Assembly: GCA_003219415.1 (NCBI GenBank) | Contig: QHOS01000027.1 | Span: forward strand, 1 to 36,802 | Source: Verrucomicrobiota bacterium | GTDB taxonomy: Bacteria; Verrucomicrobiota; Verrucomicrobiia; Chthoniobacterales; UBA10450 | DNA: 36,802 bases | Reading direction: 5' to 3' | Part shown: positions 15,555-21,549 of the stretch, in pieces | Layout: the number at the start of each line of letters is the position of its first letter | Position numbering within the stretch: the first letter of the stretch is position 1 | Notes under the pieces: generated by a model | Told to the model about the DNA's origin: nothing | The model's database searches: none | The model's input: only the letters and a program-made list of their open reading frames with translations | Translations under genes and position numbers: made by a program

Positions 15555-16129
15555 GGTTGACCTCCTTTCACAAAGCGGATCGCTTCCTCAAGTAACGATT
15601 CACTGTCTGAAGTTGTTGCTTCGTACCTTGCAAACTTGATCAGGTCGCAGCGGTTCAAGAAATCTTCGAGCAGCGATTTTTCGTCGTCGGAGAACGGCGA
15701 TGAACCTCTGAGCCCATTCAGAAACTCGACAGACGTTTGCCGCGTGACGGGCAATCCGAACTGTTCCGTCACGTAGCGCCTGAGAATGTCCGACACACGG
15801 ATACTGAAGCGATATGGATCGATCGCTGTGATCTGTCCTCGTATTTGCTCGAGCAATGCAAGTGCGCGCTCGCGGGGTGATTGGGGCGGTGTTGGGCGCC
15901 GAAAAGATTTTGCAACAAACCACACAATCAAACCGATCGCCGTGAGCAAGACGAACATTCCGAGAAAAACCAGCCACGGCGAAAGCAGCGAATAATCGAC
16001 AGGCGGCGCAATATCGTGAAACTCCTCAGCCAACAGCAAAGGAATAATGGAGTAGTGGAGTCGTGGAGTAGTGCCAGGCGAATTCATTTCATTACTCCAT
16101 TGCTCCACCGCTCCTCCGATCTCCCTCAT
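15521..16129 (-). CDS. DUF4381-like membrane protein of the moxR-bat operon
   Basis: A 202-residue protein: short N-terminal part, the motif FHDIAPPVDY that precedes the helix in DUF4381 proteins, one membrane helix (about 50-73), and a cytoplasmic helical domain (YRFSIRVSDILRRYVTEQFG, then DLIKFARYEAT). Small proteins of this type sit between DUF58 and VWA genes in such operons. The start at 16129 overlaps the DUF58 stop as ATGA, implying coupling. Codons from about residue 5 to 33, however, are a TGGAGTAGTGG-type repeat (see 16041-16118) read in frame. An ATG inside it (16087) has GGAG seven bases before it and could now be the real start. Confidence 0.78.
   Translation of the reverse strand: MREIGGAVEQWSNEMNSPGTTPRLHYSIIPLLLAEEFHDIAPPVDYSLLSPWLVFLGMFVLLTAIGLIVWFVAKSFRRPTPPQSPRERALALLEQIRGQITAIDPYRFSIRVSDILRRYVTEQFGLPVTRQTSVEFLNGLRGSSPFSDDEKSLLEDFLNRCDLIKFARYEATTSDSESLLEEAIRFVKGGQPWLIGSQEIAR
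15560..15568 (-). promoter_or_regulatory. Strong Shine-Dalgarno of batA
   Basis: Minus strand AAAGGAGGT followed by five bases and the batA ATG at 15554. It is the clearest ribosome site in the operon and fixes the batA start despite the overlap with the upstream gene. Confidence 0.75.
16041..16118. repeat. TGGAGTAGTGG inverted repeat inside the 5' end of the DUF4381-like gene
   Basis: Plus-strand arm GTGGAGTCGTGGAGTAGT (16055-16072) pairs with ATTACTCCATTGCTCCAC (16091-16108), 14 of 18 bases, around an 18-base loop; similar text extends on both sides. It is translated in frame as the N-terminal extension of the neighbouring protein. Confidence 0.6.
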
Positions 16130-17010
16130 CGAACACGAATGCGGCGCTCGCGTTGTTTGAAAAAGGAGCGCAGCTGCGGCAGATAGTCTTTGCCGGTTTG
16201 CAGAGCGATCGCGTCGATATTGTTTCGGCGCAGCACGCGCGCAAGCTCCTGCTCGCGTTCATCCATAAGCCCGCTAAAACGCGCTCGCGTTGTGCGATCC
16301 GCCGTGTTGATCTCAATTTGATCCCCGGTCTCGGCATCTTCCAAGGTGATGATGCCGATATTTGGCAATACTCGTTCTCGTTCATCGTGGATATGGATGG
16401 CCACGAAATCGTGCCGCCGTCCACTCACCGCCAGCGCTCGCGAAAAATCGGGCGCCTGAAAATCCGAAATGAAGAAAACCACAGCGCGTCGTGTGACAAT
16501 TTTATTCAGATAATCGAGGGCCAGCGCCGGCTCTGTGCCGCGTCCCTTTGGTTCGAAAAACAAAATCTCCCGGATAAGTCGTAGCGTATGGGAGCGGCCT
16601 TTCTTTGGAGGAATAAAAAGCTCGACCCGATCGGTGAAGAGGATGAGCCCGACCTTGTCGTTGTTCCTAATCGCGCTGAAAGCGAGCAAACACGCGACTT
16701 CCGCGGCCAATTCCCGTTTTGATTGCGTTGTGCTCCCGAAGTTTCCTGACGCGCTGACATCCACGACCAGCATTACCGTAAGCTCGCGTTCTTCTGTAAA
16801 TTTTTTCACAAACGCGTTGCCCATCCGCGCGGTCACGTTCCAGTCGATCGCGCGAATTTCGTCGCCGGGCTGATACTCACGCACGTCTTCAAAATTCATT
16901 CCCCGGCCTTTGAAAACACTGTGGTAATCGCCGGCGAACGCGGTCTCGACGAGCCCTCTCGTCTTTATCTCGAGAGTCCGGATTTTTTTGAGAATCTCCG
17001 CTGGTTCCAT
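16126..17010 (-). CDS. DUF58 / VWA-like protein of the moxR operon
   Basis: From ATG 17010 the protein has 294 residues. The DUF58 signature is plain: GRGMNFEDVREYQPGDEIRA (36-55), IDWNVTAR, then a VWA-like fold with DVSAS (84-88). DUF58 proteins are encoded directly after MoxR ATPases and before Bat proteins; here an extra gene separates them. The open frame continues 29 codons upstream, but these translate an ACTTCTCACT-type repeat (HNHFSLLTNHFSLP), so they are excluded. The repeat begins only four bases before the ATG and leaves no recognisable ribosome site, so expression may depend on read-through coupling or has been altered. Confidence 0.88.
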   Translation of the reverse strand: MEPAEILKKIRTLEIKTRGLVETAFAGDYHSVFKGRGMNFEDVREYQPGDEIRAIDWNVTARMGNAFVKKFTEERELTVMLVVDVSASGNFGSTTQSKRELAAEVACLLAFSAIRNNDKVGLILFTDRVELFIPPKKGRSHTLRLIREILFFEPKGRGTEPALALDYLNKIVTRRAVVFFISDFQAPDFSRALAVSGRRHDFVAIHIHDERERVLPNIGIITLEDAETGDQIEINTADRTTRARFSGLMDEREQELARVLRRNNIDAIALQTGKDYLPQLRSFFKQRERRIRVR

Positions 17011-17014
17011 CGGA

Positions 17015-17044
17015 AGTGAGAAGTGATTGGTGAGAAGTGAAAAG
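17015..17044. repeat. Left arm of inverted repeat around the S23-like gene
   Basis: Bases 17015-17040 are exactly the reverse complement of 17525-17550 (26 of 26); four more bases match at three positions. Each arm is built of two AGTGAGAAGTGA-like units joined by TTGG. This arm lies between the S23-like stop (17048) and the DUF58 ATG (17010). Confidence 0.9.
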
Positions 17045-17047
17045 TGA

Positions 17048-17512
17048 TTATGCGAAAAATTCGTCGATGTTGGATGACTGTTCGCTCGTCGAGTCATTCT
17101 CTTCTACGCGTGAAATCCCTCGATAATCCGTTGCTGGAGAATGCTTACAGAAGTCGTCGGCCCGATCGATCATTCGCGAAAGCATTTTCCCTATCGAAAC
17201 GTATTGGGAATCAAGCGGGTCGAATTGCTCAGGAAGAACATAGCCAGAATCTCGCGCGTCATCTAACCAGGACTGGGTCTCAGTGGCTTCGCCGAGTGCC
17301 TCATCGAGCTTGTTAACAAACACGGCCCTATAGCGCCGTCGGCCCCACGCCTCAGCAATCATTGCTTTAATAGCCCGTGAGCTGCGCCGAATCTGATCCG
17401 TTAAGGAATAACGTTCCTCGACGGGAAATTCGCGACTCAAGACGAATATGGTTCCTGCTGCATTTCGAGCTGCCTGGTAGACTTTCAAATCCCGAAACGA
17501 TCTCGCAATCAC
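17048..17512 (-). CDS. Four-helix-bundle protein (23S rRNA intervening-sequence / S23 family)
   Basis: A 154-residue soluble protein. The start SFRDLKVYQAARNAA, then FPVEERYSLTDQIRRSSRA, SIKA-like AIKAMIAEAWGRRR and FVNKLDEALGEATETQSWLD are the family hallmarks. Such proteins are encoded in intervening sequences of 23S rRNA (Leptospira, Coxiella) and, as the Avd relative, in diversity-generating retroelements; they are basic helical bundles thought to bind nucleic acid, but their role is unknown. The tail after about residue 120 is longer and more polar than usual. It starts with GTG; a GAGAAG in the right repeat arm could serve as ribosome site. It stands inside the moxR-bat operon, flanked by inverted repeats, with no rRNA or reverse transcriptase nearby. 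Confidence 0.85.
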   Translation of the reverse strand: MIARSFRDLKVYQAARNAAGTIFVLSREFPVEERYSLTDQIRRSSRAIKAMIAEAWGRRRYRAVFVNKLDEALGEATETQSWLDDARDSGYVLPEQFDPLDSQYVSIGKMLSRMIDRADDFCKHSPATDYRGISRVEENDSTSEQSSNIDEFFA

Positions 17513-17520
17513 TGTAGCGA

Positions 17521-17550
17521 CTTCTCACTTCTCACCAATCACTTCTCACT
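17521..17550. repeat. Right arm of inverted repeat around the S23-like gene
   Basis: Partner of 17015-17044. It lies between the moxR stop (17562) and the GTG start of the S23-like gene (17512). Read on the transcribed strand it is purine-rich (GTGAGAAGTGA units), so pairing with the other arm would hide the possible ribosome site. Confidence 0.9.
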
Positions 17551-17561
17551 GTTGGTCCTCA

Positions 17562-18548
17562 TCACGGCACCGGCAATCCAGCAAATATTCTCTCAATAAT
17601 CGTCTCGCTGGTCACTGCTTCTGCCTCGGCTTCGTAGCTAACAATGATGCGGTGTCGCAACACGTCGGGGCCAATGCTTTTGACGTCCTGCGGCGTGACG
17701 TAGCCCCGGCCGTTCAGAAACGCATGAGCCCGAGCGCCCAGCGCAAGATAGATCGTCGCACGTGGTGAAGCTCCGTAACGAATGAGCCCTTCGAGTCGTA
17801 AGTTATAGGCTGCGGGCTCACGCGTCGCCCAGACGACGTCCACAATGTAATCCTTCACGCGGTCATCGATGTAAATGCTGTTAACCACGTCCCGGGCAGC
17901 GATGATTTGCTTCGGATCAACCACTGGATCAACTCGCAAATCCGGCGAGGAAGTCGCCATCAAGTCGAGAATGTTTCGCTCCTCGGACTTTTGGGGATAA
18001 CCAATGTTCAATTTGAACATGAAACGGTCGAGCTGCGCTTCCGGCAGTTGATAAGTTCCTTCCTGTTCAATCGGGTTTTGCGTCGCCAAAACAAGAAACG
18101 GATCGGAAAGCGGATAGGTTTGCTCGCCGATGGTGACTTGCCGCTCTTGCATCGCCTCAAGCAGCGCGCTCTGTACCTTGGCTGGTGCGCGATTTATTTC
18201 GTCGGCCAGGATTAGATTGGAAAAGATCGGGCCGAGCTTGGTGGTAAATTCCCCGGTCCGCGGATTGTAAATGAGAGTGCCGATTAGATCTGCAGGCAAA
18301 AGATCTGGCGTGAATTGCAATCTTTGGAAACCGGTCTGGATACAGGCGGCCATCGTCTTCACCGTGAGCGTCTTGGCTAGCCCCGGGACGCCTTCGAGCA
18401 GGAGATGACCATTAGCGAGCAGCCCGAGGAGGAGACGATCCACCAAATATTTCTGGCCTATGATCACGTGACCGACCTGTTGGCGGAGCCCGGGAATCCA
18501 TTGGCCCAGCTCCCGAACTTCCTGCGTAATTTCCTGCGTAGATTTCAT
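17562..18548 (-). CDS. moxR: MoxR-family AAA+ ATPase
   Basis: A 328-residue cytoplasmic ATPase of normal length. Walker A GVPGLAKT (53-60), Walker B LILADEIN (112-119), followed by RAPAKVQSALLEAMQE, and the sensor ATQNPIEQEGTYQLPEAQLD are all intact; a helical lid follows. MoxR ATPases work as chaperones with VWA proteins encoded downstream, here DUF58, BatA and BatB. It is the first gene of the minus-strand operon and is divergent from the GT-C gene, so the operon promoter should lie in 18549-18693. ATG 18548 is the only sensible start; the ribosome site is weak. Confidence 0.95.
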   Translation of the reverse strand: MKSTQEITQEVRELGQWIPGLRQQVGHVIIGQKYLVDRLLLGLLANGHLLLEGVPGLAKTLTVKTMAACIQTGFQRLQFTPDLLPADLIGTLIYNPRTGEFTTKLGPIFSNLILADEINRAPAKVQSALLEAMQERQVTIGEQTYPLSDPFLVLATQNPIEQEGTYQLPEAQLDRFMFKLNIGYPQKSEERNILDLMATSSPDLRVDPVVDPKQIIAARDVVNSIYIDDRVKDYIVDVVWATREPAAYNLRLEGLIRYGASPRATIYLALGARAHAFLNGRGYVTPQDVKSIGPDVLRHRIIVSYEAEAEAVTSETIIERIFAGLPVP

Positions 18549-18693
18549 ACGGACTCGTGAGACACGCAGGCTTGGGAGAACGTTCGATCAAACGTGCCGC
18601 AACCTGCTGAATTTCTGCTCATTTCGCTCACGAATCCTCCCGGTCTAGTCGCGTGAGCGCAGCGGCAGAATAATGCTAAACGTTTAGATCGCA
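18549..18693. promoter_or_regulatory. Divergent promoter region with two palindromes
   Basis: The 145 bases between moxR and the GT-C gene must hold both promoters. ACGTTCGATCAAACGT (18580-18595) is a palindrome with one mismatched pair; CTAAACGTTTAG (18676-18687) is a perfect 12-base palindrome seven bases before the GT-C start. Both share an AAACGT half, which suits a dimeric repressor, but no regulator is identified. No convincing -35/-10 pair was found. Confidence 0.35.
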
Positions 18694-21549
18694 ATGTTCC
18701 TTCTCAAGCCATGGCATCGAGCGATTGGGGTAGCCGCGTTTGCAGGTGTCGCGATGTCGGTCCTTGCATGGATCGCCTGGAATGATCCGGCCATCAATTT
18801 TTTGAGCCGTGATAAACGAGCCGAGTGGATAGTCTTTCCTGTTGCAGTTGACACCCACGCGCATTGGTTCGCCAGTCTCGACGCAATATTCCGGCGCGAG
18901 TTTATTCTGACGGATCGACCGGCGACCGCGCGTTTGGGCGTTCGCTCAATGCGGCGCGCCGACGTAAGAATCAATGGCGTAGCCGTTCGCTTTCCGTCGA
19001 ATCGCAATTGGAAAGAGATTGTGAGCGTCGACGTTACCGGGCAATTACAGGGAGGCAGTAACGTGATCGAAGCTCGCGTCTTTAATCATAATGGACCCCC
19101 GGCGCTGTGGCTTACTTTGAATACGGATCAACTAAGCTTGCGCAGCGACAGAACTTGGGAAGTATCGTTTGCCGGTTCTTCATGGCGTCATGCCGCGTTG
19201 GCCGCGGCGGCGAAGACTCCAGGGCCCGGTAATTCCATTGCTGGCGGGGAAGGCACGTTTGATACGCTGCAAAAAGTTTGGCCTTTCTGGATAGTTCTCA
19301 TTGCAATCGCTTCTGTAGCCGTCTTTATCTGGAACCTCAGCCTTAAGAACTGCACAACACGATGGCTGGAAAAAACGCTCTTGCTCGTCCTAGCCGGCCT
19401 CTGGTTGCTGTTATTCTGGAATAATTCGCGGCTGTTGCCGTTTCACGCCGGCTTCGACGCGAAGGAGCATCTCAAATACATCAACTACATCCAGGAACAC
19501 CGAGCATTGCCGTTGGCGAGTGAAGGCTGGGAAATGTATCAGCCGCCGCTCTATTACTTGATTGCGGCGGCCAGCCTTTCAGCGTGCAAACTGTCGATCA
19601 ACGATCCTACGTCGATTTTATTACTGCGTTTGATCGGCGCGTTCTTGGGCATCGCCCAATTCGTCTTTGTTTTTCTTAGTTTACGGCTTTTGTTTCCTGC
19701 GCGAACCGCGTTCGTCGGACTTTTGCTCGCAGCATTTCTGCCGATGCACATGTATCTCGCGCAGTATGTGACGAATGAAATGCTGGCCGCCACTCTGGCT
19801 ACAGCGACGCTATATGTATGTTTGCGACTGCTGAAGAGCGATACGCCGCGCGTGTCGCAGTTCGCCTGGCTCGGATTCACGCTTGGCGCAGCGATGCTGG
19901 CGAAAGCGACCACCGTTTTGCTACTTCCCATCGCGATTGCTGCAATCGCCGGGAAGCTCGCTTACGCGCGAGTGCGACTCGCAATCTCGCTGCGCAACCT
20001 CGGGCTACTGCTTGCGATTTGTCTTACTGTATGCGGCTGGCATTACGCGCGCATCTGGCTGAGGTTCGGTACGCCGCTCCTTGGCAACTGGGATGTAGTC
20101 AGCGGATTCACCTGGTGGCAGGACCCCGGTTATCACACTGCGACTGATTACCTTCGTTTCGGCCGATCGTTGGCGCATCCACTCTTCAGCGGTTTCGCCG
20201 GATTTGCCGACGGAATCTATTCTACACTATGGGGTGACGCATTATGCGGCGGCGCGTCGAGCCTGAGCTTCGCCTGGAACCGGCAGCCAATGGTAGCCGG
20301 TTATTTGTGGGCGGTGATTCCCACGGTGTTGATTCTCGTAGGCGTCGTCGCCGCGATCGTTCGGTTTATTCGAAAACCTTCCGGCCAATTGTTCGTGTTA
20401 CTTGGTTTCTGGGCAGTACTCGTGCTCGGCTTAATTTTTATGACTCTCAAAGTTCCCTCGTACGCACAAGCAAAAGCGTTCTACGGGTTGTCAGCTCTCA
20501 CGCCGCTTTGTTTCTTTGGCGCGCTGGGTTGGGAAACGCTGACACACGGCAGTAAACGTCATCGATTTGTTCTTGCTGCACTTTTGCTCATTTGGACGAT
20601 GAACAGTTTCGCCACTTATTGGATTGTTCTTTCAGTGCCGCAGCATCTTTATGCCGCAAAAACCTTGGGCACCGATAATCAGATCGACCGCGCCGCCTCC
20701 GAAGCACTTAAAGCCGTAGAAGCAGATCCCGCGAATGCGACCGCGCGCGGGCTTCATGCACTGAGCTTGAGCGAGCTGGGAGAAGACCAGGAAGCCATCA
20801 AGGAAGCCGAGCGCGCGGTTGAACTGAATCCCACCAATTCTTCTGTCCACTTGGATCTAGCCGTTTCGGCAAAACGTAGTGACCCCGAGCGCGCAATCGC
20901 GGAAGCGCGGCGTGCAATCGAGCTCGGTCCGGAGAATTCTTCGGCCCAGCAGTTCCTGATGAATTGTTTTGTCGAATCACACCGCTACGGCGAAGCGAGC
21001 GATCTTGGACGCGAATGGCTGGCTGTGACTCCATATGACGCCGCTGCTCATTCCGCCCTAAGTGTGGCACTGGCAGAAACCGGCGATCTTACATCGGCAG
21101 CGCAGCACTTTGGTTACGTGATGATGTTACGGCCCGAAGCTGAACAAGCCCATGCACAATTGCGCCAGATTCTCCTGTCATTGGCCAGAGACCCGGATGG
21201 ATTGCAGCGACTCCGCGACATCGCTGCAAATGCGCCGGACTCACCACGAATGCTGGATGAACTTGCGTGGTTGCTTGCGACGTATCCCGATTCGAAATCG
21301 CGCGATGGGACCGAGGCAGTTCGCCTCGCGGAACACGCTTGTGCTCTGACCGAACGTCGGATCCCCGCTCTTCTCGATACCCTGGCTGCGGCTTATGCTG
21401 AGGCGGGAGATTTTCCGCGGGCAATCAGCGTAGCCGAAGAAGCGCTCAATGACGCGCGGTCCTCCGCCGACAATGATGCCGTCAAGCTGAGCGAAATCAT
21501 TCTTACATCACTTCGCGAAAGCCTTCCCTATCGCCAGGAGCCGGAGTAA
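18694..21549 (+). CDS. GT-C (family 39-like) membrane glycosyltransferase with N-terminal jelly-roll and C-terminal TPRs
   Basis: A 951-residue protein. A membrane helix (about 10-28) is followed by an external beta-sandwich (about 55-165; VRINGVAVRF, SVDVTGQLQGGSNVIEARVF) resembling carbohydrate-binding jelly-rolls. About ten membrane helices (195-620) follow with the GT-C-type first loop HAGFDAKEHLKYINYI (251-266) and MYQPPLYYLIAA, as in PMT/ArnT-like glycosyltransferases that use polyprenyl-phosphate sugars. The last third (about 655-935) is TPR repeats (AIKEAERAVELNPTNSSVHL). It could glycosylate envelope proteins or glycans; donor and acceptor are unknown. It is a lone gene, divergent from moxR and convergent with der (4-base gap). 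Confidence 0.8.
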   Translation: MFLLKPWHRAIGVAAFAGVAMSVLAWIAWNDPAINFLSRDKRAEWIVFPVAVDTHAHWFASLDAIFRREFILTDRPATARLGVRSMRRADVRINGVAVRFPSNRNWKEIVSVDVTGQLQGGSNVIEARVFNHNGPPALWLTLNTDQLSLRSDRTWEVSFAGSSWRHAALAAAAKTPGPGNSIAGGEGTFDTLQKVWPFWIVLIAIASVAVFIWNLSLKNCTTRWLEKTLLLVLAGLWLLLFWNNSRLLPFHAGFDAKEHLKYINYIQEHRALPLASEGWEMYQPPLYYLIAAASLSACKLSINDPTSILLLRLIGAFLGIAQFVFVFLSLRLLFPARTAFVGLLLAAFLPMHMYLAQYVTNEMLAATLATATLYVCLRLLKSDTPRVSQFAWLGFTLGAAMLAKATTVLLLPIAIAAIAGKLAYARVRLAISLRNLGLLLAICLTVCGWHYARIWLRFGTPLLGNWDVVSGFTWWQDPGYHTATDYLRFGRSLAHPLFSGFAGFADGIYSTLWGDALCGGASSLSFAWNRQPMVAGYLWAVIPTVLILVGVVAAIVRFIRKPSGQLFVLLGFWAVLVLGLIFMTLKVPSYAQAKAFYGLSALTPLCFFGALGWETLTHGSKRHRFVLAALLLIWTMNSFATYWIVLSVPQHLYAAKTLGTDNQIDRAASEALKAVEADPANATARGLHALSLSELGEDQEAIKEAERAVELNPTNSSVHLDLAVSAKRSDPERAIAEARRAIELGPENSSAQQFLMNCFVESHRYGEASDLGREWLAVTPYDAAAHSALSVALAETGDLTSAAQHFGYVMMLRPEAEQAHAQLRQILLSLARDPDGLQRLRDIAANAPDSPRMLDELAWLLATYPDSKSRDGTEAVRLAEHACALTERRIPALLDTLAAAYAEAGDFPRAISVAEEALNDARSSADNDAVKLSEIILTSLRESLPYRQEPE

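Follow-up and report, generated by a model that had tools for sequence, protein, structure and literature searches.

An S23 gene lies between moxR and DUF58 and is enclosed by inverted heptamer arrays

The window analysed is a stretch of 36,802 nucleotides from the genome of a member of the Verrucomicrobiota (contig QHOS01000027.1). On its reverse strand lie a gene for a moxR-type AAA ATPase (17562..18548; PF07726, E 6e-64), which ends with TGA at 17562, and a downstream gene for a DUF58 protein (16126..17010; PF01882). The listed open reading frame of the DUF58 gene carries 29 N-terminal residues that derive from one arm of an inverted repeat and from the tail of an S23 gene, and the ATG at 17010 (MEPAEILKK) was therefore taken as the true start; alignments of orthologs begin at the same methionine. 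With this start and the moxR stop codon, the insert between the two genes comprises 17011..17561, and the limits given in the preliminary description were thereby confirmed. In relatives this position is often occupied by a short spacer or by other content.

Read in the sense direction, the moxR stop codon is followed by 11 nt, the 5' arm (17520..17550, reverse strand; AGTGAGAAGTGATTGGTGAGAAGTGAGAAGT), 7 nt and the GTG start of an S23 (23S_rRNA_IVP) gene (17048..17512, reverse strand), which encodes 154 amino acids and ends with TAA. After a further 2 nt follows the 3' arm (17015..17045, reverse strand), an inverted copy of the 5' arm, and then, after 4 nt, the ATG of DUF58, and the S23 insert fills the operon junction exactly. 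Direct comparison verified the perfect 26-bp inverted repeat claimed earlier: positions 17015-17040 (AGTGAGAAGTGATTGGTGAGAAGTGA) are the exact reverse complement of 17525-17550, a match that chance would not plausibly produce within about 550 nt. The repeat can be prolonged to 17015-17045 and 17520-17550 (31 nt, 97%, one mismatch). Both arms are degenerate tandem arrays (AGTGAGA AGTGATT GGTGAGA AGTGAGA AGT) of the 7-nt unit AGTGAGA, a structure that adds to the preliminary description. A gene-less hairpin of the same kind as the S23 arms (16041..16117), built of the 8-nt units GGAGTAGT and CATTACTC, occupies the next junction of this operon. An Rfam scan of 16000-18700 gave zero matches, with nothing in the S23 insert.

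Profile searches supported the earlier claim that an S23-family gene separates moxR from DUF58. The protein matched PF05635 with an E value of 1.3e-28 and 99.7 bits (curated cut-off 33.8) and TIGR02436 with 91.1 bits (curated cut-off 24). The AlphaFold2 model of the monomer was a four-helix bundle (pLDDT 88.8), and its nearest folds were 2gsc and 2rld, followed by Avd (4dwl). A homopentameric state is characteristic of the S23/23S_rRNA_IVP family. S23 orthologues gave dN/dS values of about 0.05-0.2 with dS mostly saturated, which points to a protein that is under strong purifying selection. S23/IVP genes were present in 141 of the 195 genomes sampled of the phylum Verrucomicrobiota, as well as in many other phyla; we know of no function for these genes, which are annotated as 'four helix bundle protein'.

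The architecture is general and the array unit is private to each locus

The source genome contains about 11 S23 genes, mostly located between matching inverted short-unit arrays whose unit varies from locus to locus (e.g., GTTGAGA, AAAAGGTT, ATTGCGG, CCAACGC, TTTCAC). Since every locus has its own unit, the possibility that the same arm sequence recurs at other S23 genes was rejected. The pattern GTGAGAAGTGA occurred 18 times in the source genome and its reverse not once; the other sites that were read were gene-less hairpins and one single short array, with no S23 genes. In relatives, the copy number of GTGAGAAGTGA had no relation to the S23 gene at the moxR junction, and trans-mobilisation of gene-less copies alongside a cognate S23 gene is on this ground not supported. 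The earlier expectation that the arms would be linked to S23 genes elsewhere thus failed for the literal GTGAGAAGTGA sequence and held for the architecture with a locus-specific unit. In another genome of the order (G056), from which the choice of extra sequence was biased to one repeat, GTGAGAAGTGA was present in 94 copies versus 1 reversed, some of them in long arrays.

A consensus protein was used as the query for scanning genome contigs, and the arms were scored by aligning the upstream flank locally with the reverse-complemented downstream flank and taking the best match, with a threshold of at least 14. This score was reached by 79% of 95 full S23 genes from the genus and the order, by 3.6% of swapped flanks, by 1.0% of 292 control ORFs (Fisher 5e-57 for S23 genes against control ORFs) and by 0.3% of random windows. 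Arms were likewise detected at 80% of 30 S23 loci from the same phylum and at 79% of 77 loci from diverse phyla (Bacteroidota, Desulfobacterota, Planctomycetota, Patescibacteria and others; swaps 6%). Eight diverse genomes with multiple S23 copies had arms at 24 of 30 loci, with a unit private to each copy. Detectable arms were absent at about 20% of S23 genes, and many of the genomes compared are draft assemblies. No rRNA was found at the 20 diverse S23 loci scanned. The S23 gene of the window is a member of a widespread group of small operon inserts with locus-specific inverted heptamer arrays.

Five S23 loci of complete cyanobacterial plasmids all had arrays (e.g., TAGGGAG, AAAAGGG); one of them, within a cas6-cas4 operon, had a more complex layout of direct and inverted arrays. 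This locus (L348:2280-3000) belongs to a Pseudanabaena plasmid; its S23 gene separates cas6 from cas4 in a type I-D operon, and its AGCTAAA and AGCCAAA arrays are very long and run in both directions.

The arrays have a fixed period and polarity and the gene lies in sense within operons

As in STRR-like arrays, the S23 arms consist of tandem degenerate 7- or 8-nt units lying between genes. Where both arms were clear tandem arrays, the period was nearly always 7 or 8; it was the same in both arms of 53 out of 56 elements, and the median array had about 4.8 units. The 5' arm was richer in G than in C in 147 elements and the reverse was the case in 11. No universal unit motif rose above the null among period-7 elements, and the idea of one universal motif read by one protein was therefore rejected; period-8 elements showed a weak RG preference.

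Neighbour orientation was called from the longest ORF, which is a heuristic. By this measure both neighbours ran in the same direction as S23 in 79 cases and both in the opposite direction in no case, and single-sided calls were concordant. A Nostoc plasmid provided an exception, with S23 antisense between ribonucleotide reductase genes. Because S23 is in sense with both neighbours, its expression is most simply explained by read-through from the host operon.

The element is patchily distributed and its history is uncoupled from that of its flanks

The moxR-DUF58 junction was surveyed in 30 genomes including the source genome. S23 was present at 11 of the 30 junctions, with arms of GTGAGAAG or GTGATCAG, and the 19 junctions without S23 comprised six short ones (15-27 nt), eight with a GIY-YIG nuclease, four with hairpin remnants and one with a single array (L056). 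The comparison of empty and filled junctions proposed in the preliminary description thus revealed that S23 is not fixed at this position. The GIY-YIG inserts lay in an unrelated long hairpin (GTCATTCCGAGCGAAGTCGAGGAATCC; e.g., L062:1121-1423); the family was confirmed in one of the eight and assigned by eye in the others, and two of the eight were visible at the 3' end only. One junction (L053) had a 5' remnant of the S23 element ahead of the GIY-YIG insert.

In the comparison of the source genome with one relative (G029), the flanks were 94-95% identical at the nucleotide level and the element 77%, with a sharp drop at the element borders; with another relative (G028), the values were 81.5% for the flanks and 85% for the element. 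Across 45 pairs, the identity of the flanks showed no significant correlation with that of the element (Spearman 0.24, p 0.12). Since the history of the element is uncoupled from that of its flanks, it has most likely been exchanged horizontally at this junction, and comparison of these sequences suggests that the S23 element is most likely a horizontally mobile unit; short-tract homologous recombination could mimic such an uncoupled history.

Presence/absence polymorphism and a flank-independent history are shared with classical transposons and MITEs. Terminal inverted repeats common to all copies were not found, the S23 arms being locus-specific. At the moxR junction no target-site duplication was definable, because the sequences of the empty junctions are too divergent, and no transposase, nuclease or reverse transcriptase was present within the S23 element. 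Across the genus, related S23 lineages (75-86% amino acid identity) at different loci had the same unit type, which argues that the gene and its arms travel together. Most S23 lineages were confined to one locus, and since they often remain there while dS saturates, movement between loci appears to be rare.

The two arms change in concert, probably at the DNA level

Among orthologous elements, the arms matched each other better within an element than between orthologs (18.4 vs 15.4, Wilcoxon 1e-5), and at one locus the corresponding values were 18.8 and 11.6. At one locus with S23 orthologs 63-92% identical, three unit types (AAAGGTTA, ATCGTGA and GTTGAAGC) occurred, each matched across the arms. 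Over these same comparisons synonymous sites were mostly saturated. The protein is constrained, and renewal or selection keeps the arms matched.

Mismatches between the arms of 160 elements comprised 160 G-U and 164 A-C pairs; tRNA stems from the same data, a control of small sample size but with a clear outcome, gave 14 G-U and 0 A-C. Because G-U is not in excess over A-C, selection on an RNA stem was not seen in the arms and was rejected, and the near equality of both mismatches favours copying at the DNA level. In the folding check that the preliminary description had proposed, the sense RNA of the element did fold with its arms paired (z -3.4). Given this predicted fold, cleavage of the transcript by RNase III would be possible; excision of the insert at the RNA level is not favoured.

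No RVT_1 reverse transcriptase was found in the source genome (96.5% complete), which accordingly lacks the reverse transcriptase that belongs to a diversity-generating retroelement. The action of such a retroelement or of a reverse transcriptase in trans was rejected, and mobilisation in trans with retroelement help, as previously suggested, was not borne out. What stands of the idea of a mobile IVS-like insert in an mRNA is a stem-bounded S23 insert in a protein operon, patchily present and with its own history; retroelement help and selection on an RNA stem are not supported.

Arrays also occur without S23 genes

The source genome had 10 gene-less tandem-armed hairpins in 380 kb, as against 2 in an equal length of sequence from two S23-free genomes (p 0.04). 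Within the order, one genome lacking S23 contained two of them in 180 kb. The content of the next junction of the operon, which in the source genome is a gene-less GGAGTAAT hairpin (16041-16117), differed among relatives, in which other hairpins, single GTTGAAGC arrays or nothing were present. Arrays were also found around two other genes, which were named from their translations: one for a universal stress protein and one resembling pdxA. The gene-less hairpins, the other enclosed genes and the hairpin at the next junction mean that arrays can exist without S23.

Strand polarity relative to genes was dropped for the gene-less hairpins, because an inverted repeat is identical when read on either strand. 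The arrays around the universal-stress-protein-like gene (L146:10354-11026) are inverted and have the heptamer unit TCGTCATTCG, and S23 is absent there. A second dispersed hairpin family (TGTCATTCTGAGCGAAGCGAAGAATCTC) was observed together with REP-like GTAG hairpins (L142, L150, L152, L155, L158), in a genome that encodes seven Y1 transposases.

A mobile unit of gene and arrays and its alternatives

Taking together the anatomy, generality, sense orientation, polarity, concerted arms, uncoupled history and protein constraint established here, we propose an S23 element of about 0.45-0.65 kb that would consist of an S23 gene and two inverted degenerate 7-8-nt arrays, with the G-rich arm leading. 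It would sit in sense within an operon, so that S23 could be read from the host transcript, and would spread horizontally, the gene being swapped or lost with its arms at fixed junctions. The arrays would drift to new units yet remain mutually matched, one of them probably being recopied from the other at the DNA level by snap-back or hairpin-templated synthesis when the DNA is replicated or the element moves. The S23 protein, with its nucleic-acid-binding Avd fold, most likely acts on the arrays by binding, protection or movement, probably assisted by host enzymes in a presumed mode of movement. We regard the case for this mobile unit of an S23 gene and two matched arrays, working at the DNA level, as evenly balanced. 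Classical 23S rRNA intervening sequences with S23 would form the rRNA branch of these elements, and DNA-level mobile inserts may include rRNA intervening sequences as a special case. More tentatively, S23 proteins could be the dedicated partners of inverted heptamer/octamer arrays across bacteria, in one ancient class of small mobile inserts that would include rRNA intervening sequences, many STRR-like repeats and the S23 genes of cas operons; in such a class, the arrays would be rewritten in concert at the DNA level, and period, polarity and mutual complementarity alone would be kept.

The arrays could instead be general intergenic heptamer repeats of the STRR kind, shaped by replication slippage and palindrome correction, with S23 genes as mere, if frequent, passengers in their loops that play no role in making or moving them. 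Gene-less hairpins built of the same unit types in the source genome agree with this, as do the next junction with its single arrays and variable hairpins, the arrays around genes other than S23, the GTGAGAAGTGA copies that do not track the moxR-junction gene and the tandem-armed hairpins in an S23-free genome of the order. We nevertheless consider it unlikely, as the association with S23 is highly specific across phyla (79% vs 1%), the sampled S23-free genomes are poorer in hairpins (2 vs 10 per 380 kb, p 0.04) and the arm type goes with the S23 lineage across loci.

Two further explanations place the function in the RNA, and both draw on the sense orientation. An insert that behaves as an intervening sequence in mRNA would have its arms paired and cut by RNase III, so that the S23 segment is removed or isolated and the operon message is split. 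The predicted pairing of the arms in the sense RNA fits, and a precedent exists in Coxiella, whose S23-bearing intervening sequence combines heptamers with a 28-bp stem and is cut by RNase III (PMC4990558); the mismatch counts (160 G-U vs 164 A-C, with 14 vs 0 in tRNA stems) and the cost of cutting to the operon message make it rather improbable. S23 could also be an operon-resident, RNA-binding regulator, a pentamer that binds the array in the mRNA leader in a TRAP-like manner and tunes the translation or stability of its own message and that of the downstream gene. Strict sense orientation, strong purifying selection, the S23/Avd fold and a purine-rich 5' array of about five units immediately ahead of the start codon would suit such a regulator. 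Against it, the arms pair equally at the DNA level with no G-U excess, presence is patchy among close relatives and no universal period-7 motif exceeds the null, and we judge it improbable.

Heptamer arrays, including STRRs, have to our knowledge been as unexplained as the S23 genes. The tight link between S23 and arrays renders both testable, as it joins one protein family with one kind of DNA site and offers hundreds of natural cognate pairs. Through this link rRNA intervening sequences gain a likely origin, and S23 genes within cas and other operons receive a simpler reading. The occurrence of S23 in short array-ended inserts of very different bacteria suggests that small mobile DNA of this kind is widespread and has largely escaped description.

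Comparison with known systems

Intervening sequences of rRNA are excised by RNase III without ligation. The insert of the window resembles the 23S rRNA intervening sequences with an S23 ORF (Leptospira, Coxiella) in protein family, size and inverted complementary ends, its 31-nt arms (97%) being able to form a stem; in contrast to these, it lies in a protein operon between moxR and DUF58 and not within an rRNA gene, and a genome carries many such inserts, the unit being particular to each. The Coxiella intervening sequence has 428 nt and a 28-bp stem that is cut by RNase III, and tandem heptamers (GACAGAT) with a strain-variable copy number directly precede its S23 start (PMC4990558).

The S23 protein and Avd of diversity-generating retroelements have a common fold (4dwl, TM 0.63/0.88) with an identity of about 11-13% in the structural match, and the sole phage matches of the S23 query were phage Avd proteins.

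No published join of S23 genes to arrays outside rRNA was found among the open-licence literature. The cyanobacterial STRRs and the GGGNATC heptamer repeats of Xanthomonas and Nostoc are tandem, 7-nt, intergenic and G-rich like the S23 arms, and 70-75 pairs in Xanthomonas are in convergent orientation, which is the polarity of the S23 arms (PMC4692102). These repeats form one species-wide family of units, whereas S23 arm units are locus-specific, and S23 is not mentioned in the text of PMC4692102. In Geobacter metallireducens, paired opposite-strand arrays of four to five 7-/8-nt units, some located between operon genes, were described as 'global regulator sites' and read as sites for unidentified regulators, with no link to S23 stated (PMC2700814). 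In cas loci, 23S_rRNA_IVP genes between operon genes (cmr3-S23-cmr2) were taken as a CRISPR-associated function (PMC3936711); in the present analysis, S23 inserts occurred in many kinds of operon, and a cas6-S23-cas4 arrangement was also present on the Pseudanabaena plasmid.
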